Shown in pieces: positions 12,022-56,479 of a DNA stretch of 64,000 nt; position 1 is the stretch's first letter; each line of letters starts with the position of its first letter. The translations under genes were made by a program, and so were the position numbers. A model generated the notes under the pieces. It worked only from the letters and a program-made list of their open reading frames with translations, was not told the DNA's origin and made no database searches. The DNA is from a bacterium HR11. GTDB taxonomy: Bacteria; Acidobacteriota; HRBIN11. The stretch covers positions 1 to 64,000 of the forward strand of contig BEHN01000003.1 in assembly GCA_002898535.1 (NCBI GenBank), in the 5' to 3' direction.

Positions 12022-12022
12022 C

Positions 12023-16883: not shown

Positions 16884-16887
<4 letters not shown>

Positions 16888-18485: not shown

Positions 18486-18564
18486 GTGCTGGATCTTCAG
18501 TGGTTCAGAAACCAGGGATTCCCAGAACCTTAATCCCCAACACTGGACCGAATCAGGGATGCCT

Positions 18565-19164: not shown

Positions 19165-19467
19165 GGCGAGTGGCGGATGGCGAGTGGCGAGTAGCGAGTG
19201 GCGAGTGGCGGATGGAGGGGAGGATAAGCTATGAAGGCGGTCCGATCATTTCAGGATTTGGAAGTGTGGCAACGGTTCGTTGGTTGAATTAGAAACTCAC
19301 CTGATAATTGCGCATCGTCTCGGCTATCTTTCGGAGGAAGCCCTCCGTTCACTACGAGAACAGATGGAAAGCATCAGCCGCGGTTCGCCTGAGCCGTTCC
19401 CTCAAGCAGAAGGATGGATAGCGCCTTTCTTACCCACCACTCGCCACTCGCTACTCGCCACTCGCCC
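19165..19467. repeat. GCGARTG arrays flanking the S23 pseudogene
   Basis: A direct array (19165-19217, seven units) begins at the stop of the upstream gene. An inverted array (19436-19467) ends next to the polymerase stop. Confidence 0.7.
19231..19421 (+). pseudogene. Remnant of a 23S rRNA intervening-sequence (four-helix bundle, S23) protein gene
   Basis: After a good ribosome site (GGAGGGGAGG), ATG 19231 opens MKAVRSFQDLEVWQRF, the conserved N-terminus of the S23/IVP four-helix-bundle family, but the frame stops after 18 codons. In the next frame, LVELETHLIIAHRLGYL followed by SEEALRSLREQMESI matches the family's third and fourth helices. A further shift near 19375 gives AAVRLSRSLKQKDG and the stop at 19419-19421. 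About 60 central residues are missing. The remnant sits between GCGARTG arrays in opposite orientations (19165-19217 and 19436-19467), which may have caused the deletion. Confidence 0.72.
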
Positions 19468-33634: not shown

Positions 33635-33675
33635 TCCCAATCCCCATGCCGTTTTCAGGCAACTGCATGGCTCGG

Positions 33676-36223
<2,548 letters not shown>

Positions 36224-36251
36224 TCAAGGTGCGAATGGCGTATCTCCTTCC

Positions 36252-36280
36252 AGCTTACATTCCCCCGTCCAGCCCTGCAA
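36252..36280 (-). promoter_or_regulatory. Candidate promoter upstream of pyrG
   Basis: On the minus strand TTGCAG (36280-36275) and TAAGCT (36257-36252) are 17 bases apart, 125 bases before the start codon. The hexamers match only moderately. Confidence 0.32.
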
Positions 36281-36319
36281 GACACCCGAAATCGGGACGA
36301 ACCGACGCCCGACACCGGG

Positions 36320-37729
36320 TCACGGGAAGACCTTCCCCGGGTTCATGATACCCCGGGGGTCGAAGAGGCGCTTGATCCGCCGTTGCAGGCGGAGGCTCTC
36401 GGGCGGCAGGGCGATGGGCAGGTACGGCCGCTGGACCCAGCCGACGCCGTGTTCGCCCGTGATCGTCCCGCCCATGGCGACGACGGCCTCGAACAGCTCC
36501 CGGATGGCCCGGGGCAGGACCTCCTGCCAGGTCGTCTCGTCGAGGCCCGTCTTCAAGATGTTCACGTGGATGTTGCCGTCACCGGCGTGGCCGTAGCAGA
36601 CGGCCCGGAAGCCGTACCGCTCGGCCAAGCCCCGGACCGTCGCCAGGAGGTCCGGCAGGCGGTCCCGGGGGACGACCGTATCTTCCTCTTTGTAAATCGA
36701 AGTCTTCTTGACGGCCTCGCCCATCGCCCGGCGGAAGGCCCAGAGCGCCTCCTGACGGCCCGGCGTGTCGGCGACCTGCACGTCGCGGGCGCCGGCCCGC
36801 TCGCAGACGTCCCCGACCCGCAGGGCCTGCCGCTCGACGACGGCCGGGTCGTCCCCGTCGAGCTGGATGAGGAGGAGGGCCGCCGCGCCTGTATAGGGGA
36901 ACGGCTTCTGCGTGCGCTCAGCCGTGAGGACGACGGCTTCCCGGTCCATAAATTCAAGGGCGGCCGGCAGGAGCCGGGCCTCGAAGATACCCCGGATCGC
37001 CTGGAAGGCCCCTTCCCAGGCGTCGAAGGGCACCAGGAGGGTCCACTGGACGGCCGGCTTGGGGATGAGTCGAAGGACGATGCGGGTGAAGACGCCGAGC
37101 GTTCCTTCGGAGCCGACGAAGAGGCGGGTCAGGTCGTAGCCGGCCACGTTTTTGTACAGTTTGCCGCCGGTCCGGAGGAGCCGTCCGTTCGGCAGGACGA
37201 CGTCGAGGCCGTAGACGTAATCCCGCGTAACGCCGTATTTCAAAGCCCGGGGGCCCCCGGCGTTCTCGGCGACGTTCCCCCCGATGCAGCACACGAAGCG
37301 GGACGCCGGGTCGGGCGGGTAAAAGAGGCCCCGTTCCTCGACAGCCTGCTGAAGGTCGGCCGTGACGACGCCCGGCTCGACGACGGCCATCATGTTGACG
37401 TCGTCGATCTCCAGGATGCGGTTCATCCGTTCGACGGACAGGACGACGCCGCCGAAGACGGGCAAGGCGCCGCCGCTCAGGCCCGTCCCGCCAGCCCGGG
37501 GCGTGAGGGGAATCCGCCGTCGGTCGCAGTACCGGACGACGGCCTGGACCTCCTCGGTCGAGCCGGGAAGGACGACGACCTCCGGGGGAAAGGCCAGGTC
37601 TTCCGTCTCGTCCCGGGCGTATTTTTCAAGCGATGCCGAGTCCATCCGCACGTGGACCGGCCCGACGATGCGTTCAAAGGCTTGGACGTCGGCGTCGGTC
37701 ACGGGAGCATATCCGAGCTTGGCGGCCAT
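36320..37729 (-). CDS. FAD-linked oxidase, GlcD/D-lactate dehydrogenase-like
   Basis: The 469-residue protein has a PCMH-type FAD-binding domain (VVLPGSTEEVQAVVRYC, PLTPRAGGTGLSGGALP, CIGGNVAENAGGPRALKYG) and the C-terminal substrate domain ending in CYGHAGDGNIHVNIL and GTITGEHGVGWVQR, whose His residues mark the GlcD/DLD group. It oxidises a 2-hydroxy acid such as glycolate or D-lactate. GlcE and the Fe-S subunit GlcF are absent here, so it may act alone or with unlinked partners. A TTG at 37747 that overlaps the previous stop is an alternative start. Confidence 0.88.
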   Translation of the reverse strand: MAAKLGYAPVTDADVQAFERIVGPVHVRMDSASLEKYARDETEDLAFPPEVVVLPGSTEEVQAVVRYCDRRRIPLTPRAGGTGLSGGALPVFGGVVLSVERMNRILEIDDVNMMAVVEPGVVTADLQQAVEERGLFYPPDPASRFVCCIGGNVAENAGGPRALKYGVTRDYVYGLDVVLPNGRLLRTGGKLYKNVAGYDLTRLFVGSEGTLGVFTRIVLRLIPKPAVQWTLLVPFDAWEGAFQAIRGIFEARLLPAALEFMDREAVVLTAERTQKPFPYTGAAALLLIQLDGDDPAVVERQALRVGDVCERAGARDVQVADTPGRQEALWAFRRAMGEAVKKTSIYKEEDTVVPRDRLPDLLATVRGLAERYGFRAVCYGHAGDGNIHVNILKTGLDETTWQEVLPRAIRELFEAVVAMGGTITGEHGVGWVQRPYLPIALPPESLRLQRRIKRLFDPRGIMNPGKVFP

Positions 37730-37743
37730 TACGGGTCCGGGCG

Positions 37744-38124
37744 TCAAGCGCCGAGGCGACGAATGAAAGTTTTAGCCATTGTGAAGACTTCCCGAAGGAT
37801 CTTCACGTCATCCAGCAGGGCACGGTAGTAACCGGCGATATGAAGAAGTTTATACAGTTTCTCGAAATCGCGGAGCAATTTCCCGTCCTTAGGGGCCAAG
37901 TGTTTCTGCAGAGCCTCTCGGTAAGCCTCCACGGATTGAGGCAAGTCCTTCTCATCGACACCCCGCCGGATCAAGGCGGCATCGATAGCCTTCAGGACGG
38001 CCAGGTAAGCCGTTCCACATGCCTCTTGGACATACTTGATGTCGGTATACGTCCCGCCTTCGACGAGGGCCTGACGCAGGCAAGCTTTGGCATTTTCTAA
38101 ATAACGTCGGGCTTCTCCACGCAT
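37744..38124 (-). CDS. DUF5618 (HEPN-like) small helical protein
   Basis: The 126-residue all-helical protein contains YTDIKYVQEACGTAYLAVLKAID and LLHIAGYYRALLDDVKILREVF, which match my recollection of DUF5618, a HEPN-related family often found near stress or toxin loci. Its function is unknown. The last codons overlap a possible TTG start of the oxidase gene (TTGA). No ribosome site is evident before ATG 38124, which follows remains of the dispersed element. Confidence 0.7.
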   Translation of the reverse strand: MRGEARRYLENAKACLRQALVEGGTYTDIKYVQEACGTAYLAVLKAIDAALIRRGVDEKDLPQSVEAYREALQKHLAPKDGKLLRDFEKLYKLLHIAGYYRALLDDVKILREVFTMAKTFIRRLGA

Positions 38125-40291: not shown

Positions 40292-42214
40292 TTACAAATC
40301 CCGCCCGTGGTGGTGGCATCCGGAGGCAAAGCAGTTCTTTTTGTTCGTCCCCATGCTCCCGGTATGGCACGTGTTGCACCAGCACCAGCCGTTGACCTTC
40401 GTGTCCGTCGTATTGTTGTTCGTGACCGAGTAGCCCGGCCCGCAGTCCGAAGGGACGGCTTGGGTCCCGTCCTTGCTGAGGACGACGGTCCGGAGATGGA
40501 AGAGGTTGGTAGACTGGTGACGGGGGTCATGGCAGGCTGTACAGGGTAGGGTATCTCCCTTCGCCCATCCGTAACCGGACTTGAGGGAGGGACTTCCAGT
40601 ATCCGTACCGTGCACGTCGGGACCGTAGCTTCCGCCGGCCGTATAGGCGTCCCGGATGTCCATGAGGGCGTTCGTCGGGGGTCGGACTGTAGGTGGGTAA
40701 GACCCGTCGTGGCAGTCCAGGCACCACTCGCTCTGGAAATCCGAGCCGGCCCACGTCTGACCCGGGGCGGGGACGCGGCCGTCGGTGGAATCCGGGTCGG
40801 CCACCAGGCGGGAGGCCGGGGGGTTCGTACCCGAAGCCCGGTGGGGGTCATGACAGTGGACGCACTCGATCTTGGCCCCGCTTCGGGCTTGGTCGGCATC
40901 CCTCACGTCGTGACGTGTATTGAGGTTCAGATTGTTCCACTGGCCAGCCCCGGCGGCGACCCAGAGGTCATTCTCAAAGGCGGTTCGCACGTCGGTGGCG
41001 GCCGGACTTCCGTCGTGGCACGTGTAGCAGAGCCGCTCCTCCCGGTCGACCGTCAGGCGCGGGTAGACGCCGCCAGCGCCGTCCGGCCATCCGTGGGGCC
41101 AGTGACACGAAAAGCAGGTCCCCGTCAGAGATGCGGGAATCGGGCGGTTCCTCAGGGCCGAGGCGCCCCGGGCCGGGGGCCACAGCTCGGTGCCCGTCGA
41201 GTCCGTATAGGCGTAGTCCGAACCGTACTGGCCGCCGGGCCAGCGGGCCGCCAGGCTCGTGAAGTGGGAGCCGCCCGGCGGGAGCGAATGACACTGCGTG
41301 CACAGGGCGGCCAGGGACTGACTCAGCAGGTAGCCATCGCCAGTCCCCCGTTCTTTCAGGACATAAGGGTCGCCGGCCGTGATGGGAGCGGCCAGGGGGT
41401 CGCTCCAGCAGACCGTGTTTGTCGTATTCGATACGACGATCCGCCGTTGGTACCATTTCCTGAGGTCCGACCCAGCCGTGTTAAGGACCTTCAGCTCCCA
41501 CCCGACGAGGGCGTTCGGCGTCCAGGCGGCGTCGCTGTCGGTCAGGCACACGTCACTGCCGGCCTCGGCGATGCCCCGGTACTGGGTCCGGCTGTAGGTG
41601 TAGTGGACGCCGTGACAGCTCAGGCAGGCGACCTTCCCGTCGAGGAGCTCCAGGTGGGGTGGCGTCCGGTAGTCCGGTCGGCTGGGGATAGGGACGTCGA
41701 CGGGATGGGACGAATACGGAGGCGTCGGGCTCCACCGGACCCCGTGACACTGCTGGCACATCAGGGTCCGGGAGACCCACAGGAAGGGAAAGCCGTTCCG
41801 ATGGTTGTGGACGTCGTGACACGTCGAGCAGACGACCTTTCCGTCCTCCAGGTTCCGGGCCATGTTCGAGTCCAGGGGCGGCTGGGCACCGTAGCCGGGC
41901 TGGTCGGCAGGGACCTCAAATCCGTGGCTGGTCCCCGACGTACCCGGCAGGCCCTGGTCTCCGTAGTCCAGGGTGAACCGGGCGGCCGACCCCGTCGGGG
42001 AGTGACACAGCTTACACAGGTTCACGATCCCTCCGACGAGGGTCAGCCGGGTCCCGGGGGCGCCTTTGATACGGTGGCAACTCGTGCACTGGATCCAGTT
42101 CTCAGGGCTATGGGGATAGTCTGTCGCCCCGGTCTTTCGGGGGCATCCCCCCACGCCGATGAGCACGACGAGAAGGACGAAACGTCCGAGCGAGAGGCCC
42201 CTTCGTCCCTTCAT
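40292..42214 (-). CDS. Dodecaheme-plus c-type cytochrome, probable outer-membrane lipoprotein
   Basis: The 640-residue protein has twelve CXXCH motifs (CTSCH, CKLCH, CSTCH, CQQCH, CLSCH, CTQCH, CFSCH, CYTCH, CVHCH, CLDCH, CTACH, CNTCH) and a thirteenth CX4CH variant near its end (CFASGCHHHG). The N-terminus RFVLLVVLIGVGGC looks like a lipoprotein signal, putting it at the outer membrane or cell surface. Large heme-free insertions (about residues 215-280) suggest a folded adhesion or binding part. Its start overlaps the stop of the NHL gene before it (ATGA). It is the last and largest cytochrome of the cluster, a candidate terminal electron-exchange protein. Confidence 0.88.
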   Translation of the reverse strand: MKGRRGLSLGRFVLLVVLIGVGGCPRKTGATDYPHSPENWIQCTSCHRIKGAPGTRLTLVGGIVNLCKLCHSPTGSAARFTLDYGDQGLPGTSGTSHGFEVPADQPGYGAQPPLDSNMARNLEDGKVVCSTCHDVHNHRNGFPFLWVSRTLMCQQCHGVRWSPTPPYSSHPVDVPIPSRPDYRTPPHLELLDGKVACLSCHGVHYTYSRTQYRGIAEAGSDVCLTDSDAAWTPNALVGWELKVLNTAGSDLRKWYQRRIVVSNTTNTVCWSDPLAAPITAGDPYVLKERGTGDGYLLSQSLAALCTQCHSLPPGGSHFTSLAARWPGGQYGSDYAYTDSTGTELWPPARGASALRNRPIPASLTGTCFSCHWPHGWPDGAGGVYPRLTVDREERLCYTCHDGSPAATDVRTAFENDLWVAAGAGQWNNLNLNTRHDVRDADQARSGAKIECVHCHDPHRASGTNPPASRLVADPDSTDGRVPAPGQTWAGSDFQSEWCLDCHDGSYPPTVRPPTNALMDIRDAYTAGGSYGPDVHGTDTGSPSLKSGYGWAKGDTLPCTACHDPRHQSTNLFHLRTVVLSKDGTQAVPSDCGPGYSVTNNNTTDTKVNGWCWCNTCHTGSMGTNKKNCFASGCHHHGRDL

Positions 42215-43278
42215 GGCCGCACTTCTCCGGCGACGCGCTCGACCCGAGCACGCGCCGAGTCGGCGATCACACTCCCGACGGGTTCACAACGGTTCAGCCG
42301 AGCGTGCCATTCGACTAAGGGCGGCCCCGAAGCCCACCGGCAGGTCTCGACCGGGACCCGCTCGGCCTCGATGACCAGCCGGTCATTGCCGGTATCGGCG
42401 ACCACCCGGCAGGCCGCGGCTTTTGCCATGTCCGAGGGATTCCGCCACTGGCCGGGTCCTGTCCCGTACTCGCCCGTCCGTCCCAGCAGGCCGCCCGTAG
42501 CCAGGTCGAACTGGAGCCGCTGGCTTAAGTGCCCGTCCAGGACGTCCAGGGTATCGTCCTGCACGACGAGAGCGACCGGATATTCCAGGAGCCCCTGGCC
42601 GTACGTCCCCAGGGCCTGGGCCCATCGCAGGTCCGTCTGGTAGACCCGCACGACGGGCTGGTTCTTCTGGAAATAAGAGGGCAGACCCATGTCGGTCACG
42701 AGGAGTCGATATTCGAGGCCCATCGGCTCCTGGACCAACTGAAGGGCTGTCGGGAATATCAGACCCCCGATTAGGACTTCCCGGCGGCCGTCCATATCCA
42801 TCCGTAGGACGTGGCCCTTGCCGTTGTCCAGAATCAGGACGGCCTCTTCGCCAAAGGCAAAATCCACGGGCCGGTCCAGCAGACCGGCGTCCTGCCAGCA
42901 TCGAAAGTCCAACTGACGGCCCCGGGCCGATACCGAGAAGACGGCGTTCAGGGCATCGTCGCCGACCCAGAGGCGACCGGCCCCGTCCAGGGCCACGCCG
43001 ACGGGCCGAAGGAATTCCAAGACATACCGGACGCGGGGATGGGTCCACCAGAAGACCTGGCCCCGCTCGGTCTGGGCGACCGCCAGCATCGGGGGACCCT
43101 CTTCCGGGGATGCCGCATCCGCTTCGGGCCGAACGCCCAGGGCCACGGACGTCGGAGCCGCCAGGGCGATAAAGGGTCCGTCCCCCGGAGGGGTTCCCCA
43201 CAAGACGCCCAGGGTCGCGCCCAGAAGTCCCAGACTTTCTATCAGCCATGCAATCTCCCACCGACGCCACCGTCCCAT
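42211..43278 (-). CDS. NHL/six-bladed beta-propeller protein with N-terminal membrane anchor
   Basis: ATG 43278 follows AAGGAG at a long spacing, with GAGGA closer. Of 355 residues, the first ~35 hold a hydrophobic anchor (AWLIESLGLLGATLGVLW). The rest repeats an NHL pattern: PVGVALDGAGRLWVGDD, VDFAFGEEAVLILDN, PVALVVQDDTLDVLDGH and MAKAAACRVVADTGNDRLVIE. Such propellers carry no cofactor and usually bind proteins or sugars. Its ATGA overlap with the 13-heme cytochrome argues for a stoichiometric partnership outside the inner membrane. Confidence 0.75.
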   Translation of the reverse strand: MGRWRRWEIAWLIESLGLLGATLGVLWGTPPGDGPFIALAAPTSVALGVRPEADAASPEEGPPMLAVAQTERGQVFWWTHPRVRYVLEFLRPVGVALDGAGRLWVGDDALNAVFSVSARGRQLDFRCWQDAGLLDRPVDFAFGEEAVLILDNGKGHVLRMDMDGRREVLIGGLIFPTALQLVQEPMGLEYRLLVTDMGLPSYFQKNQPVVRVYQTDLRWAQALGTYGQGLLEYPVALVVQDDTLDVLDGHLSQRLQFDLATGGLLGRTGEYGTGPGQWRNPSDMAKAAACRVVADTGNDRLVIEAERVPVETCRWASGPPLVEWHARLNRCEPVGSVIADSARARVERVAGEVRP

Positions 43279-43337
43279 GTCCTCGGTCTCCTTTTCAGTC
43301 TCCCAGGCAGATGGACAGTAGGCCCGTAGAGAGTCCC

Positions 43338-43425
43338 TCAGAACGCCGGGCGTCATACCGGCGTCCCGACCGACTCCCCACCTTCCCGTCGGCCTGTCTG
43401 CCGATGTCCCACCTGCCCATTGCAC
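43338..43425. repeat. ATGAC hairpin unit and inverse GGCAGRTN array inside the cytochrome cluster
   Basis: These fill the gap between the barrel stop and the second NHL gene. Confidence 0.5.
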
Positions 43426-45054
43426 TCACCGATAGATCGGCGGCCGCTCGGGGCCCTGGACGAAGGGGAGAGGCCGCTGGACCAAGAACCGCACGTCCCA
43501 CCAGGCCCGCCCGGCCGGCCCCGAGATCTGATAGTTAGTCCCGACCACCGTGAACCGGAATCGGCCGACCTGCCACCGAAGGTCTCCCCGGGCCGTCCGA
43601 TAGCGGGTCCCGTTCGCCCGGCCAGCGGTGTAGGTCAGACCCGCCGTGACTGGACCCAGACGGAGAGGTGCCAGGGTCGCGCTCCAGAACCGCTGACGGT
43701 GGGGGACTCCATTCCAAACCGTATCCGAGGCCTCGGCCCGAAGCTGAACCCGGAGTCGAGGCCAGTTGAGTTGAGCCCCGACGTGGGGCCGCTTTAGCGT
43801 GGCCTGGACCGAACCGGAGGTCACTTGCTCCCATCCCCAGCGGGCAAACGCAAAGAGGTGGACCCGGTCGACCAGGAAGCCCGTCCATGAAATCCCGCTC
43901 CGGAAGGACCGGCTCTCATAGCCGGGCCCGATCGGACGGAAGGCGTAGTCCCCGCCGGCCTCCCCGCGAAGCCGTCCCCGCCCGAGAGCGTGCTCGGCCG
44001 ACCCCGTCAAGCCGGCGCCGTAGCCCAGGCCCTCGGATTCGGTCCCCGTATAGTACGAGACTTCCACGCTGGGCGTCAGGTAGAAGGACCATCCCCGCCA
44101 GGTGGGGCCCCATCCCAGGCCTGTACGGACCGAGCCGGTGCTCGCGTAGGTGCCCCGAAACGTCTGAAGACTCACGGCGGGCTCTATCACGAAGCGAAGA
44201 TTCGCCCTGAGGGGGGCTTCATAGCGACCAGTCCCGTTCGCCCAGAGGAAGTCGGGCATCCGGGTCAGCTGGACGTTCCCGAAGAGGTACTTTCGGCGTG
44301 CTTCGTCGGTGCGATTGAAGTCGGCCCAGAAGAACGTCGTGTCCCGCCAGAACTGAAGTGTCGCCAGGAGATAGGCGGGGACGTCGACCCGCCGGGTCCA
44401 GGTGGTTTGAATTTGAAAGGTCTGAAACCGTTCCGGCGCTTCATAGCGGAAGAGGTCAGCCTGCAAGGTCCATCGATATCGCGGTCGGGACCGGTAGAGA
44501 GCGGCCATCCAGTGCTGAAATCGGCTCTCCCGGGAAAAGTCTAATGTCTCGAAGTTCACGGACGTCCGGTCGTACCGGAATTCCGCCCACCGGGAGGCCA
44601 GACCTGCAGAGAGCGTCTGCTCTATGCGGGTCGTCTCGAAGGGGACCGCCCAGGGGGTCTCCGTATCGCTGGACTGTTCGGTCGTATCGACTTGACGAAA
44701 GGCCCGAAGGTTCAGGGTCACGGGCCGGTACGGCAGGAACGTCAACCGGAGGTCGTACGGAGAACGGCGGGCAATCGTGAAGCGCTGAACAGGTTGGCCC
44801 CGCCATCGTTCCCCCTCCAAGAATCCCCGGCCGTAAAAGCTCAAGAACCGGCGGTGATAGATGTAGCCCCGCCCCTCCAAGAAGACGCCCCACATCATGC
44901 GGTCGGCCAGGAGCCTCTGGTCGCCCCATCGGAGGCGGGTTCGCTGGAATTCGTAGCGGAGGTCGGCCGAGAGGCTTCGAATCCGGCCCGGTGAGGGCGT
45001 GGCCCCGAGGATGCCGGCCAAAACGCCAACCATGAGGAAGAGTGGCCGCTTCAT
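43426..45054 (-). CDS. Large outer-membrane beta-barrel, probable porin of the cytochrome conduit
   Basis: The 542-residue protein has a signal peptide (PLFLMVGVLAGILGATPSPG) and from then on alternates polar and aromatic residues in strands of 9-13 (WGVFLEGRGYIYHRRFLSFYGRG, then TWRGWSFYLTPSVEVSYYTG), with Arg/Tyr-rich strands throughout. I count roughly twenty or more strand-like stretches. It belongs to no family I can name, but its size and place among multiheme cytochromes parallel MtrB/OmbB porins that hold a cytochrome across the outer membrane. That role is inference. Confidence 0.7.
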   Translation of the reverse strand: MKRPLFLMVGVLAGILGATPSPGRIRSLSADLRYEFQRTRLRWGDQRLLADRMMWGVFLEGRGYIYHRRFLSFYGRGFLEGERWRGQPVQRFTIARRSPYDLRLTFLPYRPVTLNLRAFRQVDTTEQSSDTETPWAVPFETTRIEQTLSAGLASRWAEFRYDRTSVNFETLDFSRESRFQHWMAALYRSRPRYRWTLQADLFRYEAPERFQTFQIQTTWTRRVDVPAYLLATLQFWRDTTFFWADFNRTDEARRKYLFGNVQLTRMPDFLWANGTGRYEAPLRANLRFVIEPAVSLQTFRGTYASTGSVRTGLGWGPTWRGWSFYLTPSVEVSYYTGTESEGLGYGAGLTGSAEHALGRGRLRGEAGGDYAFRPIGPGYESRSFRSGISWTGFLVDRVHLFAFARWGWEQVTSGSVQATLKRPHVGAQLNWPRLRVQLRAEASDTVWNGVPHRQRFWSATLAPLRLGPVTAGLTYTAGRANGTRYRTARGDLRWQVGRFRFTVVGTNYQISGPAGRAWWDVRFLVQRPLPFVQGPERPPIYR

Positions 45055-45083
45055 GGGACCCCTCCCCGCCGGCCGGGCTACTC

Positions 45084-45148
45084 CCCCGCCTTGAAAGGGC
45101 GGGGCGTCCCAACGGGCCGCGGGCCATCACCCGTGACGACCCGCGGCC
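45084..45148 (-). terminator. Two GC-rich hairpins between the tetraheme cytochrome and the barrel gene
   Basis: GGCCGCGGG (45115-45123) pairs with CCCGCGGCC (45140-45148), and CCCCGCC (45084-45090) pairs with GGCGGGG (45098-45104). They lie after the stop of the four-heme cytochrome. There is no T-tract, so they may slow rather than end transcription. Confidence 0.4.
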
Positions 45149-45184
45149 GTCCAAAGGTGTACGTTCAGAATTCCCGATTCAGGG

Positions 45185-45862
45185 TTACAGGTTGTGACAG
45201 CTCTCGCAGAGGCCTCTACCGGACGTGAGGTTCCGGAGGAGCGGGCCGTGCGTATTTTTCGCATGCGGCTCGTGGCAGGTCGCGCAGGTCATGACGTCCG
45301 TGTTGGTCCCGAAATTGAACAGCCGAAAGCCCCAGCCTTTGATCTGATCGGCCGGGAAGAAGAAATCCGAGGGCAGGGGCGGCGTTGCATAGACGAGGTC
45401 GATCGGGTGGTCATTCTGGAGTTCCGTCCCGTCCTCCGTCAGGTCGGCGCTCCCGGTGACGTAAACGGTATCCTGCGAATGGTTATAGTCATAGGGCGGG
45501 TTCAGGAACTGGCCGATGGCCGTCGTCGTCCCGTCATGGCAGGACATGCACATGAGCGTATGGGCCGTGTTCTGGGGAAGCGGGTTCGTCCATGTAGCGT
45601 CGTACACGGCATAGTCCGTCGCCCGAACGGCACGGTTCCACAGGTACGTCGGTACCAGGCGGGGGTCCGTGTTGGCGTGGTGGGGCGTATGGCAGTAAAC
45701 GCATACAAACTGGGTCGCGGGCGTCGTCAAGTTCGGATAGTACCGCAGGTCGTGGGCGCTACCCACGATATCCGCCAGGCTCGGTCCGCCCCATAAGACC
45801 AAGAATGCCAGGGCGGTCACGAGAGCCAGACCGACGATGATGAAAGAATCATGAGGCTTCAT
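45185..45862 (-). CDS. Tetraheme c-type cytochrome
   Basis: The 225-residue exported protein (signal FIIVGLALVTALAFLVLWGG) has four CXXCH motifs: CVYCHTPHHAN, CMSCHDGTTTA, CATCHEPHAKN and CESCHNL at the very C-terminus. IVGSAHDLRYY and NDHPIDLVYATP are typical of the doubled-CXXCH group of periplasmic cytochromes. It should carry electrons through the periplasm. ATG 45862 follows GGGGAGG, and an extended -10 box lies at 45900-45908. Confidence 0.88.
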   Translation of the reverse strand: MKPHDSFIIVGLALVTALAFLVLWGGPSLADIVGSAHDLRYYPNLTTPATQFVCVYCHTPHHANTDPRLVPTYLWNRAVRATDYAVYDATWTNPLPQNTAHTLMCMSCHDGTTTAIGQFLNPPYDYNHSQDTVYVTGSADLTEDGTELQNDHPIDLVYATPPLPSDFFFPADQIKGWGFRLFNFGTNTDVMTCATCHEPHAKNTHGPLLRNLTSGRGLCESCHNL

Positions 45863-45899
45863 GTCTGACCTCCCCCATGGGGACTTACCTGCGTAGGCT

Positions 45900-45908
45900 T
45901 CTATAGCA
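45900..45908 (-). promoter_or_regulatory. Candidate extended -10 promoter of the tetraheme cytochrome gene
   Basis: On the minus strand TGC directly precedes TATAGA, about 40 bases upstream of the ATG. No -35 box is visible, as allowed for extended -10 promoters. Confidence 0.35.
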
Positions 45909-46094
45909 ACTTTTGTGCCCAAACGGAGATGCGAGTCGGCCTTACAGGTCAAGCCATCTGGCCCGGGGGGACGGGACGACCCGGGATCTCGGACGATGGG
46001 CAGGTCGACAGCCGGTCAAGAGGTAGCAGAACTGGCCCGCGGAGAACACCAGGTCCTTTCCGCCTGCGGAATTTCACCCGCCGGCCGTGGCAAA

Positions 46095-47186
46095 TCACCC
46101 ACCCAACGCAGAGACGACCTGAGAGGGCGCCGGGGCCTTCTCGCCGGAGGCAAGGTACTGGAAGACCTGCAGGCGCATGTTTCGCTGGTCCACGACATAG
46201 ACCCGGTCCTGGTCGTCGATGTGGAGGCCCGCCGGCAGGAGGAATTGACCCGGTCCCGTGCCCGGCTCGCCGACGGCGAGGTAGACCCGTCCGAAGACGT
46301 CAAAGACCTGGACGTTGTTGAACATGGCGTCGACGACGTAGATGTGATACTCCGAGTCGACGGCGATCCCCTTCGGCCGCATGAGGTCACCTGGCCGGCG
46401 GCCCGGCTGGCCAAAAGTATTGACGACCTGGCCCTCGGGCGTCAGGACCTGGACCCGGAAGTTGCCCATGTCGGAGACATACAGGAAGCCGTCCCGGTCC
46501 ACGGCGATGTAGTTTGGGAAATTGAATTCCCCGGGGGCCTCGCCCCGGCGGCCGATAGTCCGGACCCATCGGCCCTGGAGGTCGAACACGTCGATGTGGT
46601 GGCCCTGGACGTCCACGACATAGAGGCGTCCCCGGCCCTCATCGACGGCCAGCCCGCCGGGCCGGTCCAGCTTCTGCGTGATGACGAGCTGGACCTTGCC
46701 CTGGTCGTCGAAGGCCAGGACCCGCTTGGCGTTGGAATCGGACACGAACAGCCGCCGGACCTTGCGGGCGTAGGCCAGGCCGGTCGGTCCGGTCAGGCGG
46801 GGGTTGCGGCCTGTCCAGAGGTCGATCTTCCGCCGCCGGGTGTCCAGGACGACGACCCGGCCGCCGCCCGTGTCGCTGACGAAAATGCGGCCCCCGTCGT
46901 CGGTCGTCACGTCGCTGGGATAGACGAACAAACGCCGCTTGCCCTCGCCGGCGAATTTCCGCAGGATTTGACGGACCGCACTTTCGCCCATGAAGTCCTC
47001 GGCGAAGAAGATGGATTCGACCCATCGGATTCGGGCTTTTTCCGGCGGCGGCGGCCAGACGAGAGCCTCGCCCGGCGTCGTCGGGCCCCGCCGGGACGTC
47101 TGACTTCTGAGCGGCGGGGGTCCGATGAGGGCTAAAACCAGGACTGCCGTCCAGACGGTATGAATCCAATACTTGTGGGCCTTCAT
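46095..47186 (-). CDS. Exported NHL-repeat beta-propeller protein
   Basis: GAGGAGG precedes ATG 47186. The 363-residue product has a signal peptide (TAVLVLALIGPPPLRSQ) and at least six NHL blades: DVTTDDGGRIFVSDTGGGRV, GLAYARKVRRLFVSDSNAKRV, GLAVDEGRGRLYVVDVQGHHI, YIAVDRDGFLYVSDMGNFRV, GIAVDSEYHIYVVDAMFNNV and LHIDDQDRVYVVDQRNMRL. NHL proteins next to multiheme cytochromes are known in Geobacter, where their role is unclear. Its start overlaps the stop of the heptaheme cytochrome gene (ATGA). Confidence 0.85.
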   Translation of the reverse strand: MKAHKYWIHTVWTAVLVLALIGPPPLRSQTSRRGPTTPGEALVWPPPPEKARIRWVESIFFAEDFMGESAVRQILRKFAGEGKRRLFVYPSDVTTDDGGRIFVSDTGGGRVVVLDTRRRKIDLWTGRNPRLTGPTGLAYARKVRRLFVSDSNAKRVLAFDDQGKVQLVITQKLDRPGGLAVDEGRGRLYVVDVQGHHIDVFDLQGRWVRTIGRRGEAPGEFNFPNYIAVDRDGFLYVSDMGNFRVQVLTPEGQVVNTFGQPGRRPGDLMRPKGIAVDSEYHIYVVDAMFNNVQVFDVFGRVYLAVGEPGTGPGQFLLPAGLHIDDQDRVYVVDQRNMRLQVFQYLASGEKAPAPSQVVSALGG

Positions 47187-48028
47187 GGCCGTCCTCCTCG
47201 GGTCGGCTGATGGAACCGATGGCATTTCGAACACGTCAAGGTGTCGACGGGCGGCGTCGGGCCGGGCACCGGGGCGTCCGCCGCGGGGCCCATCGGCTTG
47301 AGGACTCGGGTCGGCCTTGGGGGCGAGGGTCGCGGTCCGCTGGCCGGGTGGTCCGGAGGGACGTCCGGATGACACACAGCACAGGCCGCCTGGACCTTGG
47401 CAGGGTCCAATAGGGGCGGCTGGACGGCCCCGTGGAGTCGATGACACGAGACGCAGGCCGTCACCGAGTGCCCGTAGTGGATGTCGTCGGCCGTATGGCA
47501 TCCTCGGCACAGCTCGGGCGCGGGCCGTCGGAGGAGGGGTCGATGCTCGCTCTGGTGGGGTTCGTGACAGGTGACGCAGAGGAGCCGGTCCTCTTCTAAG
47601 GGCGTCTGGACACCCCGGACCAGGCCCACGGGTGTGGGCGCCCGAACGTCCACCGGATGGTCGTCGGTGAGGTCGAATTCCAGGAAACGGGTCTCCGGCA
47701 TAGGACCCTGAAGGTCCGGGATCTCTTGCCGGAGGATGCTCCATCGGGTGTGACATCGCAAGCAGGCCAGGTTGCGGTCCGAGACGCCGGCCGCCCGGGT
47801 CAGAAAGGTCTGGGCATTTAAAAAACGCGGCCGAAGGGTCAGGGACCGAACTTCGCCCCCGTGGGTTGCATGACAGACCTCGCAGGTCGATGAGGCACCG
47901 GGGACCCAGACTCGCCCGGGTCGGGTCAGGTCATGGGGTCCTCCGGCCAATGGGAGGGCGGCCCCCAGGAGGGTGAGCACGACGGCTCGGTCGAGGAACG
48001 CGTAGCCGACAGTTCTGTTTCGGACCAT
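47183..48028 (-). CDS. Heptaheme c-type cytochrome
   Basis: The 281-residue exported protein has seven CXXCH motifs (CEVCH, CLRCH, CVTCH, CRGCH, CVSCH, CAVCH, CSKCH), several followed by PH or LHG as in doubled-CXXCH domains. A Pro-rich stretch (PPDHPASGPRPSPPRPTR) separates the last heme, a possible flexible tether. The N-terminal hydrophobic stretch FLDRAVVLTLLGAALPLAGG is a signal peptide. It is 115 bases after the octaheme gene and overlaps the NHL gene start. Confidence 0.87.
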   Translation of the reverse strand: MVRNRTVGYAFLDRAVVLTLLGAALPLAGGPHDLTRPGRVWVPGASSTCEVCHATHGGEVRSLTLRPRFLNAQTFLTRAAGVSDRNLACLRCHTRWSILRQEIPDLQGPMPETRFLEFDLTDDHPVDVRAPTPVGLVRGVQTPLEEDRLLCVTCHEPHQSEHRPLLRRPAPELCRGCHTADDIHYGHSVTACVSCHRLHGAVQPPLLDPAKVQAACAVCHPDVPPDHPASGPRPSPPRPTRVLKPMGPAADAPVPGPTPPVDTLTCSKCHRFHQPTRGGRP

Positions 48029-48143
48029 CCTTGGGACCTTCTCACGACGGTTAAGAAGCGGTCGCTGCGATCGAATGACCGGGTTTCGACCCGGCAGGAA
48101 GCCCTCTGGGGCGACCGAATCCCGAGATCGAACGCTTTCGTCT

Positions 48144-48959
48144 TCACGAACCCTTATGGCACTGGTCGCAGAACACCTCCGGGGCCCACCGCAGGTATCC
48201 TGGGAAGGGCCCGCCGTGAGGCTGATGGCAGGAGACGCACGTCAGCCCCCGAGACTCTATCGGATGTTGGGCGACTGGATGGACGGCCTCCCGGTAGTCC
48301 TCGGCCCGGTGGCACTGAGCGCAAAGCTCGGGGATCTCCGCCGTCAGGAGCCGTTTCCGGGCGGCCCCGTGGGGGTCGTGGCATAGCCGGCAATCCCCGA
48401 CGGCGTAAGGGGCATGCAGGCGGCCGGTAACCGCCTCATGGCATTCGGCGCAGGCGGCGGCCGGTGCCGGCCCCGTGCCCTTCGCATGGCAAGTCCCGCA
48501 GTCCTTTGGGTCGTAGCCCTCGTGGGGGACCTCGGCCTGACCCGTCTTGTCCGTGTGACATCGCAGGCACGCCTCGGTCCCGGTGCCGTCCGAGTGACAG
48601 CCCGCACAGACCGCCAGGGTCTGGGCGTCGTCATGAAAGGCGTAAGGGGGCACGTCCGGATAATGACGAGACGGGAACACATGGACCGCCCGGGTCTGGC
48701 GGCGGACCTGCCCCTTCTGGACGGTCACCAGCCGGAGTTCGTGCTTCCCCGCCGGCAAGGCCAAGATGAGGTGGACGAACGCATCGGTCCGGACCTTTTT
48801 CAGGACCGACCCAGTCGTCTGGATGTCCTCGGCTTCGGCCACGACCACGACACGGGAACTCAGGAGGTGGGCGCCCGGGGGCGGATAGCGGACCGGGTCC
48901 GGGGGCTGGACCTGAAGGAGCAGGACGACAAGAACACTCAATAGGGCCCACGGCTTCAT
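48144..48959 (-). CDS. Octaheme c-type cytochrome with N-terminal Ig-like domain
   Basis: The 271-residue protein starts at ATG 48959 overlapping the preceding stop. After a signal (WALLSVLVVLLLQVQ), residues ~25-105 look like a heme-free beta-sandwich (LLSSRVVVVAEAED, AGKHELRLVTVQKG). Eight CXXCH motifs follow: CAGCH, CLRCH, CGTCH, CAECH, CRLCH, CAQCH, CVSCH, CDQCH. The sandwich could dock onto a partner cytochrome or the barrel. It is the second gene of the cluster. Confidence 0.87.
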   Translation of the reverse strand: MKPWALLSVLVVLLLQVQPPDPVRYPPPGAHLLSSRVVVVAEAEDIQTTGSVLKKVRTDAFVHLILALPAGKHELRLVTVQKGQVRRQTRAVHVFPSRHYPDVPPYAFHDDAQTLAVCAGCHSDGTGTEACLRCHTDKTGQAEVPHEGYDPKDCGTCHAKGTGPAPAAACAECHEAVTGRLHAPYAVGDCRLCHDPHGAARKRLLTAEIPELCAQCHRAEDYREAVHPVAQHPIESRGLTCVSCHQPHGGPFPGYLRWAPEVFCDQCHKGS

Positions 48960-49837
48960 CGTCCGTACTCCTCGGCCTGATGGCACGCCGGCTGGCACGC
49001 TTTCTGCTTCTCCCGAACCTGCAGACGCAGGGGAATGGCCCATAGGGGGCCGTATCGAATCCACGACCGGAGCAGGTGCGATTGCGCAGTTCCATGGGGC
49101 TCGTGGCAGACCAGGCAGTTATGACCCCGAGGGCGCTGGACGTGGACCCGGTGGAGGTTCTTGGGACCCCGGACAAATCCGCTGTCAGGGCCGAATACCT
49201 CCGCCGCCGGATGGCACTGCAAGCACAGGGAGTACTGAAGTGGCGTGTAGCGCTCGTAAAACTGGGTCGACAGATGAGACTTCAGGATCCGGGGAAAGTC
49301 GGAGCCGTGAGGCGCATGACAGGTCGCACACTCGTCCTGGGCCGGGGCATGGGGATGGGACTGCTCGAGTCGCTCGCCGATGGCGTCATGACAGGTCATG
49401 CACGTTTCCGGCTCGGGGCCTGCCAGATGGGCCTTATGAGAACTCCCGTGGGGCGTATGGCAGGCCGTGCAGGACCCCTCTTCATAGGGGGGATGGGAAA
49501 AGACCGGGGAGGGCCCCGCAGGGTGACACTTCTGGCACAGCGCGGGCACGGACTGGTTCAGGAGGGGACGCAGGCGGGAAGCGTGGGGGTCGTGGCAGGC
49601 CGTGCAGACAGCCTTTTCCTTGGGCGGATGCTGTGTCGCTACGTCGTGACAATCCACACAGAGGTTCCGAATGGCCTCCGGCGTTAGCGTCGGAAACGTA
49701 TGATCCCCCTGCTCCTCATGGCAAGTCGTGCAGTCTTCTAAGACCTCATGCTTCACGGGGAGCTTCTGGAAGTCCTTATGACACTTCAGGCACGGCGACG
49801 TAGCCTGCAGGAGGAGCCCGATAAGGAGCCACTGCAT
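48956..49837 (-). CDS. Decaheme-plus c-type cytochrome (one CX3CH variant)
   Basis: ATG 49837 is used; a TTG directly before it has better spacing to AGAGG. The 293-residue exported protein has ten CXXCH motifs (CLKCH, CTTCH, CVDCH, CTACH, CQKCH, CTACH, CMTCH, CATCH, CLQCH, CLVCH) and a last CX3CH, CQPACH, near the C-terminus. The mature protein begins with a heme only ~15 residues in. Repeating CxxCHxPHG units place it in the doubled-CXXCH family. It is the first gene of the cluster. Confidence 0.88.
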   Translation of the reverse strand: MQWLLIGLLLQATSPCLKCHKDFQKLPVKHEVLEDCTTCHEEQGDHTFPTLTPEAIRNLCVDCHDVATQHPPKEKAVCTACHDPHASRLRPLLNQSVPALCQKCHPAGPSPVFSHPPYEEGSCTACHTPHGSSHKAHLAGPEPETCMTCHDAIGERLEQSHPHAPAQDECATCHAPHGSDFPRILKSHLSTQFYERYTPLQYSLCLQCHPAAEVFGPDSGFVRGPKNLHRVHVQRPRGHNCLVCHEPHGTAQSHLLRSWIRYGPLWAIPLRLQVREKQKACQPACHQAEEYGR

Positions 49838-51750: not shown

Positions 51751-52965
51751 TTACCCCCGTCCGGCCTCCCGGAGGTCGGCCTGGACGGCCTCGACGAGGG
51801 CGTCCAGGATGCCGGGCAGGGCCGACTCGAGGCGGTGCCACGTCGGGAGTCGGGGCAGGCCCGTCGGTTGTTCCCGAAACTCCTGGACGGCCCGGTCGAT
51901 GCACTGACCGAACAGCTCGATCATCGAGCGTTCTTCGTGGAGGTTGTACGCCAGGTCGCACCACTCGCTCATGGCTCCATACACGGTCGAGTATTCCCGG
52001 GCCCGGGCGATGAAGGTCAGCCGCAGGGTCTGAAAGAAGTCGGCCGGCAGGACGACGCCCCGGCTGGCGACCTCCACGAAGAAGGCCCGGGCGATGTCGA
52101 CGACCATCCGGGTCAGGCCGCCCGAGAAGTCGGGCGGCCCCGTCGTCTGGTGCTTGTGGTCGTAGCGGTCCGTGATTTCGACCTGACAGATGTTCCGAAC
52201 GTTCAGGAGACGGTAGGCCTCGGCGAGCAGGCCGACCTCGATGCCCCAGTCGGCCGGGACGGGGATATCCCGCAGGATGCTCGTGAAGGTCGCCATTTCT
52301 CCGGCCAGGGGATACCGGAAGTCGCCCATGTACTCCAGGAAGTCTAAAGACCCCAGGATCTGCTTGAGGGCCCGTACAAAGGGGAAGTAGAACAGGCGGG
52401 CGACCCGTCCGTAGAGCTGGTCCCGATACCGGACATAGAAGCCTTTGGCGAACTGGAAGCCGAGGACGACGACGGGGTAGAGGAGCCGTCCGAGGAAGGG
52501 CCGGTCGTAAGTCAGGACGTCGGCGTCGTGAAAAGCCAGGACGGCGACCTGGCCCTCCCCGAGGGCATAGCCCAGGGCCGTCCAGACGGCCCGACCCTTG
52601 CCCCGGGGCCCCAGGGGGAGGACGGTTTCGACGGACTGGATATGGGCCTGCAGACGGGGGCTGTCATTCCAGACGACGACGCCCCGAGGACCCAGGACGT
52701 CGGCGACGGCCCGGACGGCCGTCTCGAATTCGGCGGCCTCGGCCCGGTCCAGGCTGATGTAAACCCTCTTCACGTAAGGGATGCCGGCCAGGACTTCCAA
52801 GATGTGGGTCATCGCCGGCGCTTGAAAGTCCGAGTACAGACAGGGGATCAGGACCCCTACGGGCTTTCGCCGGGCCACCGCCGCGAGACGCTCCTCCAAG
52901 CGGGGCCAAACGTCCGGCCGGATCAACGGCAGGGTCGGTACGTAGTTCTGCCAAAAGTCTCCCAT
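51751..52965 (-). CDS. Glucosyl-3-phosphoglycerate synthase-like glycosyltransferase (GT81)
   Basis: The 404-residue protein has a GT-A fold start (GVLIPCLYSDFQAPAMTHIL), the phosphoglycerate-binding-type GPRGKGRAVWTALGYAL and a metal-binding DxD in LAFHDADVLTYDR. The GEMATFTSILRDIPVPADWGIEVGLLAEAY region is typical of GT81 and GpgS. It should transfer glucose to 3-phosphoglycerate. The phosphatase for that product lies directly upstream, so the pair makes glucosylglycerate, a compatible solute. ATG 52965 has GGAGG five bases before it; a GTG at 52986 lies inside the octamer repeat. Confidence 0.82.
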   Translation of the reverse strand: MGDFWQNYVPTLPLIRPDVWPRLEERLAAVARRKPVGVLIPCLYSDFQAPAMTHILEVLAGIPYVKRVYISLDRAEAAEFETAVRAVADVLGPRGVVVWNDSPRLQAHIQSVETVLPLGPRGKGRAVWTALGYALGEGQVAVLAFHDADVLTYDRPFLGRLLYPVVVLGFQFAKGFYVRYRDQLYGRVARLFYFPFVRALKQILGSLDFLEYMGDFRYPLAGEMATFTSILRDIPVPADWGIEVGLLAEAYRLLNVRNICQVEITDRYDHKHQTTGPPDFSGGLTRMVVDIARAFFVEVASRGVVLPADFFQTLRLTFIARAREYSTVYGAMSEWCDLAYNLHEERSMIELFGQCIDRAVQEFREQPTGLPRLPTWHRLESALPGILDALVEAVQADLREAGRG

Positions 52966-52977
52966 GGAGGCCTCCGA

Positions 52978-53045
52978 ACTGCCCACCTGCCCATCTGCCT
53001 ATCTGCCTACCTGCCCACCTGCCTACCTGCCCATCTGCCCACGAC
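52978..53045. repeat. GGCAGRTN octamer array across the gpgP-gpgS junction
   Basis: Eight inverse units (CTGCCCAC, CTGCCTAT) begin 13 bases upstream of the gpgS ATG and run 39 bases into gpgP, forming its last codons. Confidence 0.72.
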
Positions 53046-53786
53046 CCTGAGTACCCATCGTCGCCACACCCGGGGATGGTCGACCCGGACGAAGGGGATG
53101 CCCCGGCGGGCCATCCGGCGGTCGGACGCCGTGTCGCCGACGGCCCAGAAGGCGGCTCGGGGCCATATCCGGCGGAGGCCCGGATAGAGGGCATCCACGG
53201 CGTGGCCCTTGTGAACGGGCGTCAACGTGAAAAGAAGTTTCCCCCGCAGGAGGTACCAGCCTCGCGCCCGGGCCCGCGCCGCCAAGGTCTTCGGAGAGCC
53301 GGCCTCGATGACGAAAGGCGGCGGTCCCCGCCGCCGGTAAGCCCGCTCGACGGCCTCCGGCGGAAGCCCGCTCCAGCGGGTAAACGTCTGGGGCGGGATC
53401 TCCGACAGGAGACGAATGCGTACGCCCGTCGCCTCCGCCGCCCGCCGCAGGTCTGCCGCCTCCGGCCGCTGGGGCCATTCGTAGAGAGCGAGGCCGTCGG
53501 ACTCACCGGCGAACTGATAGCCCCGCCGTCGGGCCGCCGCCTGCCAAGTCGAACGATACGGCCCGTCGGCCGGGACGGCAACGCCCCAGCCGCTCTCGTA
53601 AGCAAAGCAGGGCAGGAAGGCCGGCAGCCGCCGCCAGGCCATCATCTCGTCCAGCGTCTTGCTGGTGACGGCCACGATGCCGACGCCGTGGGCCTCGCAG
53701 ACCCGGAGCGTCTCCAGCGTCGTTTCCCATGGAAAGTCCGGGGCCGTCATCGTCCCGTCGATGTCCGAAAATACGACGGCTTTCAT
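53007..53786 (-). CDS. Glucosyl-3-phosphoglycerate / mannosyl-3-phosphoglycerate phosphatase (HAD, Cof-type)
   Basis: The 259-residue protein opens with MKAVVFSDIDGTMTA (catalytic Asp-x-Asp), then IVAVTSKTLDEMMAWRR and FAYESGWGVAVP, as in MpgP/GpgP, and has the Lys/Asp motifs in TPVHKGHAVDALY and AFWAVGDTASDRRM. It removes phosphate from the sugar-phosphoglycerate made by the next gene. The last residues ([11 protein letters not shown]) come from the GGCAGRTN octamer array (52978-53045). The dispersed element (53789-53863) ends three bases before the ATG. Confidence 0.8.
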   Translation of the reverse strand: MKAVVFSDIDGTMTAPDFPWETTLETLRVCEAHGVGIVAVTSKTLDEMMAWRRLPAFLPCFAYESGWGVAVPADGPYRSTWQAAARRRGYQFAGESDGLALYEWPQRPEAADLRRAAEATGVRIRLLSEIPPQTFTRWSGLPPEAVERAYRRRGPPPFVIEAGSPKTLAARARARGWYLLRGKLLFTLTPVHKGHAVDALYPGLRRIWPRAAFWAVGDTASDRRMARRGIPFVRVDHPRVWRRWVLRVVGRWAGRQVGR

Positions 53787-53788
53787 CG

Positions 53789-53863
53789 CAGGTCCGTTCG
53801 ATTCGGGAGAATGGCGTCGGACCGGCTTGGCCATCATCCCGAGGAGGAAGATTTTACAAGCTT
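53789..53863 (-). repeat. Dispersed ~75-bp element abutting the gpgP start codon
   Basis: Same orientation relative to the gene as at comB and the epimerase gene; it ends three bases before the ATG. Confidence 0.6.
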
Positions 53864-54819: not shown

Positions 54820-55581
54820 CTAATGAGCAGGGCGGGGATTTCCTATGTAAACGTCCGTATCGTAGGGGACGGGCAAGTCCCGAAGGCTTCCATGGCCCTG
54901 CCGCCAGATGTACAGCCAGACCTGGACGACCCGGCTGACGCCCCGCTGGAGCCGGAGGGCGGCGATCCCGAAGGCCGTGCTCCGGAAGTCCAGGTCGGCC
55001 CACGCTGGGGGCTCCGCCGGGAGCCCGAACTCGGCGGGCCGGGCCAGCATCTGCGCATATTCCCGGGACTCGGTCCGGACTTTCTGAAGCCATCGGTCCC
55101 AGCGGCCGGCCTCGAGGTCGGGGTCCCGGTAGCCATAGAAGACCGGCGGGATTTCCTCGAGATGCCGCCGGGTGAATTCGTAGAAGGCTTGTCGGACGGC
55201 GGGGTCGACTTCCCGATAGACGGCCGGGTCGTGGAGCCACAGGACCCATCGGGCGCTTTCCGAGAAGGTCTGAAGGACCGGGGTCAGCCGGCCCGTCTGG
55301 TAAAAGCGCTGGGGGACCTCCCTCAGCCAGTAGGGCAGGAGGCGGGGGAGGGTCTGCGCCTCCTCAGGCGTCGGAGGCCGGCAGAGGGTCGCCCGGGCGG
55401 CGTCTTCCTGAAGCGTGACCAGACGCCGGAGGGCCGGCGGGAGCCACGGGTACGTCTGCCGGTACGCCCAGACCTGAATGTCGCAATCCCAGGCCCCTCC
55501 CTCGCGAGGGGCGCACACCAGCGTCAGACCGACCAGGCCGAAGACCCAACCGAGCTTCATCCCCCGTCTTCCGGGACTCAT
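54820..55581 (-). CDS. Exported protein of unknown function
   Basis: No family was firmly recognised. The start ATG 55581 overlaps the STAS stop (ATGA). The 253-residue product has a signal peptide (KLGWVFGLVGLTLVCAPREGGA), and the mature part begins WDCDIQVWAYRQTYPWLPPAL. The Trp start and LPPAL helix recall the N-terminus of zinc-dependent phospholipase C-like proteins, but the His ligands are not evident, so this is a weak hint. The rest is helical with several Trp and Tyr. It is the last gene of the CBS-STAS operon. Confidence 0.6.
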   Translation of the reverse strand: MSPGRRGMKLGWVFGLVGLTLVCAPREGGAWDCDIQVWAYRQTYPWLPPALRRLVTLQEDAARATLCRPPTPEEAQTLPRLLPYWLREVPQRFYQTGRLTPVLQTFSESARWVLWLHDPAVYREVDPAVRQAFYEFTRRHLEEIPPVFYGYRDPDLEAGRWDRWLQKVRTESREYAQMLARPAEFGLPAEPPAWADLDFRSTAFGIAALRLQRGVSRVVQVWLYIWRQGHGSLRDLPVPYDTDVYIGNPRPAH

Positions 55582-55934
55582 CCTGCCGCCCCGGAGAGGC
55601 CCAGATGGGTCCGGGCCGTTTCCAGGGAGTCGAAGATCGGGAAGACCTGGTCCAAACCCGTGATCCGCAAGAGGGTCAAGATGCGGTCCCGGGGCTGAAC
55701 GAGGACGAGGCGGGCCGAGGTCCCCCGGAGTCGTTCCAGGAAGCCGACCAGCTCGCCGAGCCCCGTACTGTCGATGTAATCGACGCCCCGCAAGTCTACC
55801 AGGACGCAGGCCACGCCGGCGTCGAGGACTTCGCTCATCAGCTCGTAAAACTTCCGAGCGCTCTCCCCGACCCGGATCGGGCCCTCGATGGCCAGGACCG
55901 TGTGATCGGGGAAATCCTGGCGGGACACTTGCAT
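55578..55934 (-). CDS. STAS-domain protein (anti-sigma-factor antagonist-like)
   Basis: The 118-residue protein is one STAS domain: HTVLAIEGPIRVGESARKF, then CVLVDLRGVDYIDSTGLGELVGFL with the phosphorylatable Ser of SpoIIAA-type antagonists. It should bind an anti-sigma factor kinase or another STAS partner; none is nearby. GAGAGG lies seven bases before ATG 55934. It follows the CBS-domain gene by 14 bases, so both respond to the same promoter. Confidence 0.87.
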   Translation of the reverse strand: MQVSRQDFPDHTVLAIEGPIRVGESARKFYELMSEVLDAGVACVLVDLRGVDYIDSTGLGELVGFLERLRGTSARLVLVQPRDRILTLLRITGLDQVFPIFDSLETARTHLGLSGAAG

Positions 55935-55948
55935 GCCCTGGCCTCTCT

Positions 55949-56479
55949 TCAAGCCAATGAAAACCGGAAGCTGTTAAAGGCCCCACAGCGGGGGCATTCG
56001 TCGGGCGGCATCCAAGCCGTCAGCCGAAAGTCGCACTGCAGGCAGACCCAGGTATGCACCTCGGCCGAGGAAGCCTCCCCGGCCGACGCCGCCTGCTGAC
56101 GACGGAGCTCGGCCCACAGGATGTCCTTGATCGACAGCATGCCGACGACCTGGTTGTCGTGCACGACCGGCAGGTGGCGGCACCGGCGAGTACTCATCTT
56201 GTAAAGGGCCTGGAGGGAGGAGTCGTCCAGGTCGACGACCTCCACATCCCGGGTCATGATGTCGGCGACCGACGTCTGACGGGGATCCCGTTCCCGGGCG
56301 ACGACCTGGTAGAGCACGTCCCGCTCGGTCACGATGCCGATGAGTTGCCCGTATTCGTTGACGACCGGCAGGGCCCCGACCTGGTGCTCGGCCATCAGGC
56401 GGGCGGCTTCGAGGACCGTGGCCTCGGGGAAGGTGACCCAGACTTCAAGGCTCGGCAGGATGTCCCGAACTTTCAGCAT
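55949..56479 (-). CDS. CBS-domain pair with C-terminal zinc ribbon
   Basis: The 176-residue protein has two CBS repeats (VLEAARLMAEHQVGALPVVN, IVTERDVLYQV; ADIMTRDVEVVDLDDSSLQ, HLPVVHDNQVVGMLSIKDI) that bind adenine nucleotides. Its tail, VCLQCDFRLTAW followed by ECPRCGAFNSF, is a four-Cys rubredoxin- or ribbon-like metal site. Together it may sense energy state and report to the STAS protein next to it; that is inference. A good promoter lies at 56524-56552. Confidence 0.87.
   Translation of the reverse strand: MLKVRDILPSLEVWVTFPEATVLEAARLMAEHQVGALPVVNEYGQLIGIVTERDVLYQVVARERDPRQTSVADIMTRDVEVVDLDDSSLQALYKMSTRRCRHLPVVHDNQVVGMLSIKDILWAELRRQQAASAGEASSAEVHTWVCLQCDFRLTAWMPPDECPRCGAFNSFRFSLA

Follow-up and report, generated by a model that had tools for sequence, protein, structure and literature searches.

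An eight-gene multiheme cytochrome cluster of an Acidobacteriota bacterium as a probable locus for an OmcE-type nanowire with a wide outer-membrane barrel

The first 64,000 nucleotides of contig BEHN01000003.1 of bacterium HR11 (Acidobacteriota), referred to here as the window, carry a cluster of eight co-oriented genes on the minus strand at positions 40292-49837, which we call g1 to g8. We propose that this cluster encodes an extracellular cytochrome nanowire of the OmcE type, with an outer-membrane anchor or exit machinery, and we put the probability of this reading at about 0.72. It is best read as related to the published undecaheme electron transfer (Uet) locus and to the Geobacter omcE and osc loci, with a periplasmic set split into cytochromes of 11, 8 and 7 hemes. 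An earlier note, made from the sequence alone, had described the same eight genes as a candidate new conduit paralleling MtrCAB and serving extracellular electron transfer. The general role is well supported, and the arrangement of the eight genes was found as described. As regards the conduit itself, a role of the barrel around the MtrA-like g1 may still hold, whereas the OmcE-type g5, the widespread Uet-like layout and the separate MtrAB of this genome had been missed.

The predicted wire subunit is encoded by g5. This tetraheme cytochrome matches the OmcE filament subunit of Geobacter (PDB 7tfs) with E 1e-19, with residues 8-224 of 225 aligned, and PDB 9yuq with E 1e-20 over nearly its whole length; the latter entry consists of 16 chains of one sequence, from which we infer that it is a filament as well. 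Across 18 homologs spanning many phyla, eight histidines and no others are invariant, namely the four of the CXXCH motifs together with H37, H61, H152 and H200, and in the alignment all eight match OmcE positions. These residues probably serve as bis-histidine heme ligands. The protein carries both the whole-subunit homology and the combination of four CXXCH motifs with four distal histidines that characterize OmcE-type nanowire cytochromes. Searching 84,980 species genomes with an OmcE alignment confirmed at least 552 relatives, the best 80 of which were used; among the matches listed, they come from Proteobacteria, Chlorobiota, Bacteroidota, Planctomycetota, Nitrospirota, WOR-3 and other groups. 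One genome of the same phylum (G009, locus L171 on contig C155 and further contigs) contains 17 match stretches to the OmcE-like protein, several of them clustered, which greatly exceeds the usual number of one to five.

The single outer-membrane barrel recognized earlier is g6, for which the structural model predicts 28 strands (predicted local distance difference test, pLDDT, 89.4; predicted template modelling score, pTM, 0.74), turns of at most 11 residues on both sides and no plug. By standard barrel geometry, such a ring would measure an estimated ~5 nm across the backbone. The impression that this barrel is unlike the MtrB family was confirmed: g6 has no match in Pfam, NCBIfam or PDB sequences, none to the MtrB/PioB barrel families PF11854 and TIGR03509, and an hhalign probability of 1% against the MtrB proteins of its own genome and of two other genomes of the phylum, G060 and G153. 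A Foldseek search with the model returned generic barrels with template modelling (TM) scores below 0.4, which are informative on size alone; the highest query-normalised TM-score among the matches listed, 0.37, belonged to MtrB (6r2q_B). An iterative profile built from four close members recovered 51 homologs, including g6 and its close relatives, from 1337 open reading frames (ORFs) and the window genes, and these were found only in OmcE loci, the ORF set itself having been chosen for OmcE. Reversed and shuffled sequence controls gave no match to this profile below E 1e-3. In profile-profile comparisons, the g6 group matched a mixed set including Geobacteraceae at 96% (E 4e-9) and, more weakly, a second group including Chlorobiota, Bacteroidota and Calditrichota (75%, E 2e-5). 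Members of the g6-type group are ~120 residues shorter than most of their barrel relatives.

Because the loci recovered in this way had been chosen for OmcE, the linkage was retested without that bias in genomes of the same phylum. The barrel profile matched 35 of 396 genomes, and an OmcE-like gene lies within ~4 kb in 32 of the 35; of the three exceptions, two are situated on contigs ending near the match and one matches only weakly. The barrel and OmcE genes are co-stranded in all pairs examined (57/57). An NHL gene occurs at most 6 kb from the barrel in each of the 50 loci examined, so the NHL pairing, previously regarded as distinctive, is common to such loci. In 35 of these 50, a g1-like cytochrome with at least 7 hemes is encoded within 8 kb. 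Among the matches listed, the recurring layout is OmcE, NHL, one or more small multiheme cytochromes, barrel, NHL and an 11-heme cytochrome, and gammaproteobacterial loci run NHL-OmcE-3h-3h-barrel-NHL-11h (h, hemes). The same gene order, which the earlier note had suggested looking for, is held by two genomes of the same genus on short, partial contigs; G060 and G153, from other families of the phylum, retain NHL-g1-g2-g3-g4-g5-g6-NHL, and a genome of the same class retains barrel-g7-g8. The loci of G060 (L031) and G153 (L158) are nearly identical though the two genomes are assigned to different families, which may reflect either recent transfer or a binning or taxonomy issue.

The remaining genes encode four further cytochromes and two propellers. 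Motif counts give 10, 8, 7, 4 and 12 CXXCH in g1, g2, g3, g5 and g8, and one further motif each, CX3CH at the C-terminus of g1 and CX4CH in g8, raises the heme sites to 11, 8, 7, 4 and 13, the numbers reported before. All five cytochromes contain doubled-CXXCH domains according to a Pfam search. The ATGA overlaps mentioned in the earlier note are present at three junctions (g1/g2, g3/g4 and g7/g8), and most starts are preceded by a ribosome-binding-like sequence. At E<=1e-3, g1 has a single PDB match, MtrA (chain A) in the Mtr complex structure 6r2q (E 1e-11; the file misnames the molecule). Its score against NCBIfam TIGR03508 (MtrA/DmsE decaheme) is 86.6 bits, below the cut-off of 192.2, and its matches to the GSU2203/DmsE-like family likewise fall below cut-off; g1 is probably periplasmic or a candidate plug of the barrel. 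Its non-canonical CX3CH is invariant across four homologs, one of them from WOR-3. The 11-heme proteins of three related loci (L038, L044 and L046) also terminate in CX3CH. The G060 ortholog of g2 matches it at 40%. Together, g1, g2 and g3 hold 26 heme sites; related loci have instead a single g1-like cytochrome with 20-42 hemes, and Geobacter GSU2495 (OscI) has 26 hemes, which suggests that the trio may be a split form of a single large feeder cytochrome.

Of the two propellers, g4 is a clear NHL protein, while the NHL match of g7 is weak and below the cut-off; g7 is nevertheless homologous to NHL proteins of related loci, so that both propellers proposed earlier are retained. The large cytochrome g8 aligns with its ortholog in a genome of the same class (G003) at 55% over 657 residues, its CX4CH pairing there with an ordinary CXXCH, and it groups with Geothrix 13-heme cytochromes whose genes adjoin NHL genes. 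Its earlier designation as an apparent lipoprotein was not upheld: a VGGC motif is present, but the cysteine is absent from the orthologs of the same genus and of G003. An identity of g8 with UetJ was rejected, as g8 has no OmcE-like start at its N-terminus and aligns with the Geothrix 13-heme proteins.

On these grounds, a mechanism can be proposed. By homology to the solved OmcE subunit, g5 would be exported and would polymerise into a heme-stacked filament. The near-obligate linkage to OmcE suggests that g6 may form a wide 28-strand outer-membrane ring which anchors or releases the filament, holds a cytochrome, or both. Electrons would be carried over the periplasm to the ring site by g1, g2 and g3, with the MtrA-like g1 as the foremost candidate for insertion into the ring. 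The propellers g4 and g7 may act as scaffold or assembly factors, and g8 would be a further large cytochrome at the base of the wire or on the cell surface.

Among the closest known systems is the OmcE filament of Geobacter sulfurreducens (PDB 7TFS), encoded by GSU0618, which adjoins gsu0615-gsu0617. A Geobacteraceae metagenome-assembled genome holds a comparable locus (L055) running multiheme-multiheme-NHL-OmcE-NHL. In contrast, g5 is only moderately similar to OmcE in sequence, and the HR11 cluster, with its predicted wire subunit, also includes a short barrel, an additional gene for a 7-heme cytochrome and a partner with 13 hemes. Another related system is the Uet locus of Tenderiales and Gallionella, with an extracellular tetraheme UetA, a barrel UetC, two NHL proteins UetHI and a large cytochrome (PMC10734462). 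The HR11 cluster likewise unites a tetraheme cytochrome, a barrel, two NHL propellers and one large cytochrome, and the gammaproteobacterial loci share the tetraheme-barrel-two-NHL layout and fit the published description. By comparison with Uet, the trihemes UetDEG and the peptidyl-prolyl isomerase (PPIase) UetB are not among the eight genes, the 11+8+7-heme set occurring instead; the 13-site, Geothrix-type g8 differs from the undecaheme UetJ with its OmcE-like N-terminus, and g6 is ~120 residues shorter than the gammaproteobacterial barrels. In G. sulfurreducens, the osc (omcS companion) operon has been put forward as serving the folding and secretion of OmcS (Shen 2025, cited in PMC13194489). 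It also encodes a filament cytochrome together with proposed folding and secretion genes and large periplasmic multihemes; its filament subunit is the hexaheme OmcS, which is stated to have no sequence similarity to OmcE (PMC12977616).

Several observations weigh against the nanowire reading. The single-chain AlphaFold model of g5 is poor (pLDDT 43) and its hemes cannot be modelled, so the OmcE fold of g5 is argued from sequence. Polymerisation is not required of every OmcE-like protein, and caution has been issued for OmcS paralogs (PMC12977616). Direct hhalign comparison of the g6 group with the gammaproteobacterial barrels is not significant, the two being tied via intermediates only. The cluster also lacks a gene for the PPIase reported as part of Uet.

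Outward electron flow is most likely. A variant that differs in direction only, and which we consider somewhat unlikely, is that the same wire and conduit import electrons from Fe(II) minerals or from partners, as proposed for Uet, which is described from cathode-oxidising Tenderiales and iron-oxidising Gallionella (PMC10734462); the two heme-copper oxidase genes of the HR11 genome would fit such uptake. However, Geobacter OmcE homologs are described as serving Fe(III) reduction as well, the cytochrome-b/NapC-type multiheme module of this genome is compatible with quinol oxidation, and direction itself cannot be told from sequence.

The genome, which also codes for cytochrome c assembly proteins, contains a genuine conduit elsewhere. 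Contig C1 encodes a decaheme of the MtrA family (282 bits against a cut-off of 192) side by side with an MtrB barrel (PF11854, E 2e-99), accompanied by NapC- and cytochrome-b-linked multihemes that form an inner-membrane multiheme module. This second locus for extracellular electron transfer (L145, C1:318001-338000, at 4253-19451) has, besides the MtrA-type decaheme and the MtrB/PioB barrel, a 27-heme NapC-like protein, a 13-heme cytochrome-b561 fusion, an 11-heme cytochrome, a histidine kinase and a sigma-54 regulator. The idea of the cluster as a replacement for MtrAB or a stand-in for MtrCAB was therefore dropped. In G060, an MtrA-like/MtrB/19-heme set adjoins the nanowire cluster, and thus conduit and wire locus are separate modules in these organisms. 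An assignment of the phylum to Acidobacteriota is probable: syntenic proteins of one of its genomes, G064, are 60-81% identical to those of Geothrix and Holophagaceae.

A porin-cytochrome conduit without a filament, in which g6 sheathes the MtrA-like g1 and electrons pass to monomeric surface g8 and g5, is in our view improbable. It draws on the resemblance to MtrCAB and MtrAB, which likewise combine a large barrel with an MtrA-type multiheme: the sole PDB match of g1, the low but top-ranking TM-score of MtrB for g6, and the frequent g1-like neighbour of the barrel. It is opposed by the lack of any detectable relation of g6 to MtrB, by the membership of g5 in the OmcE family, of which the characterised member builds filaments, by the MtrAB already present, and by gammaproteobacterial Uet-like loci that pair the barrel with trihemes in the place of g1; the cluster also has no lipoprotein of the OmcA/MtrC type. 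That the genes make a reductase complex, periplasmic or soluble, which acts on a small-molecule acceptor and uses the barrel as a substrate porin is very improbable: doubled-CXXCH multihemes are generally known from reductase systems too, but nitrite, hydroxylamine and sulfite reductase families all scored below cut-off in Pfam and NCBIfam, as the earlier note had anticipated, the wide plug-free barrel is linked to OmcE, and both g5 and g8 belong to types of extracellular cytochrome.

Table 1. Genes of the cluster and further ORFs of the window, in window coordinates.
Feature	Position	Strand	Basis or remark
g1, multiheme cytochrome, 11 hemes, MtrA-related	48956..49837	-	10 CXXCH + C-terminal CX3CH; doubled-CXXCH; 6r2q_A
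g2, octaheme cytochrome, heme-free N-terminal part of ~120 residues	48144..48959	-	CXXCH count; G060 ortholog
g3, heptaheme cytochrome	47183..48028	-	CXXCH count; G060 ortholog
g4, secreted NHL beta-propeller	46095..47186	-	PF01436 E 2e-30; PDB NHL propellers
g5, tetraheme cytochrome, OmcE homolog, predicted nanowire subunit	45185..45862	-	7tfs and 9yuq matches
g6, outer-membrane beta-barrel, 28 strands predicted, without known family	43426..45054	-	model; OmcE linkage
g7, divergent NHL propeller	42211..43278, likely start 43278	-	PF01436 E 0.013; ortholog in locus L167
g8, large cytochrome, 13 hemes	40292..42214	-	12 CXXCH + CX4CH; Geothrix 13-heme cytochrome family
Sortilin/Asp-box (BNR) repeat protein, 1054 residues	25438-28602	-	
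Long ORF	31100-33679	-	no Pfam match at 1e-3
Long ORF	51751-52986	-	no Pfam match at 1e-3
Long ORF	53007-53837	-	no Pfam match at 1e-3
Long ORF	54820-55986	-	no Pfam match at 1e-3
1141-codon frame, most likely a GC-rich shadow ORF	34403-37828	+	antisense to CTP synthase and FAD-oxidase genes

The wire type, the NHL association and the presence of a barrel in such loci are already known from the Uet, osc and omcE loci. What is new is the composition of this cluster variant and the quantified, cross-phylum tie between OmcE and a wide barrel that belongs to no known family. The exit route of nanowires from the cell, their site of anchorage and the way in which electrons get into them are named as open questions in the field (PMC12307469). 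Tentatively, g6 might found a family of ~28-strand outer-membrane rings that serve OmcE-type nanowires in many phyla as a dedicated port of exit and as an anchor, with split MtrA-like periplasmic cytochromes supplying the wire with electrons by way of the ring. A wide, plug-free barrel outside known families is tied near-obligately to OmcE-type genes across phyla, and the compact eight-gene set with its conserved six-gene core makes the barrel, the propellers and the feeder cytochromes testable jointly. The cluster adds a nanowire-type locus to a probably under-studied class of Acidobacteriota, in a genome that carries a separate MtrAB conduit.

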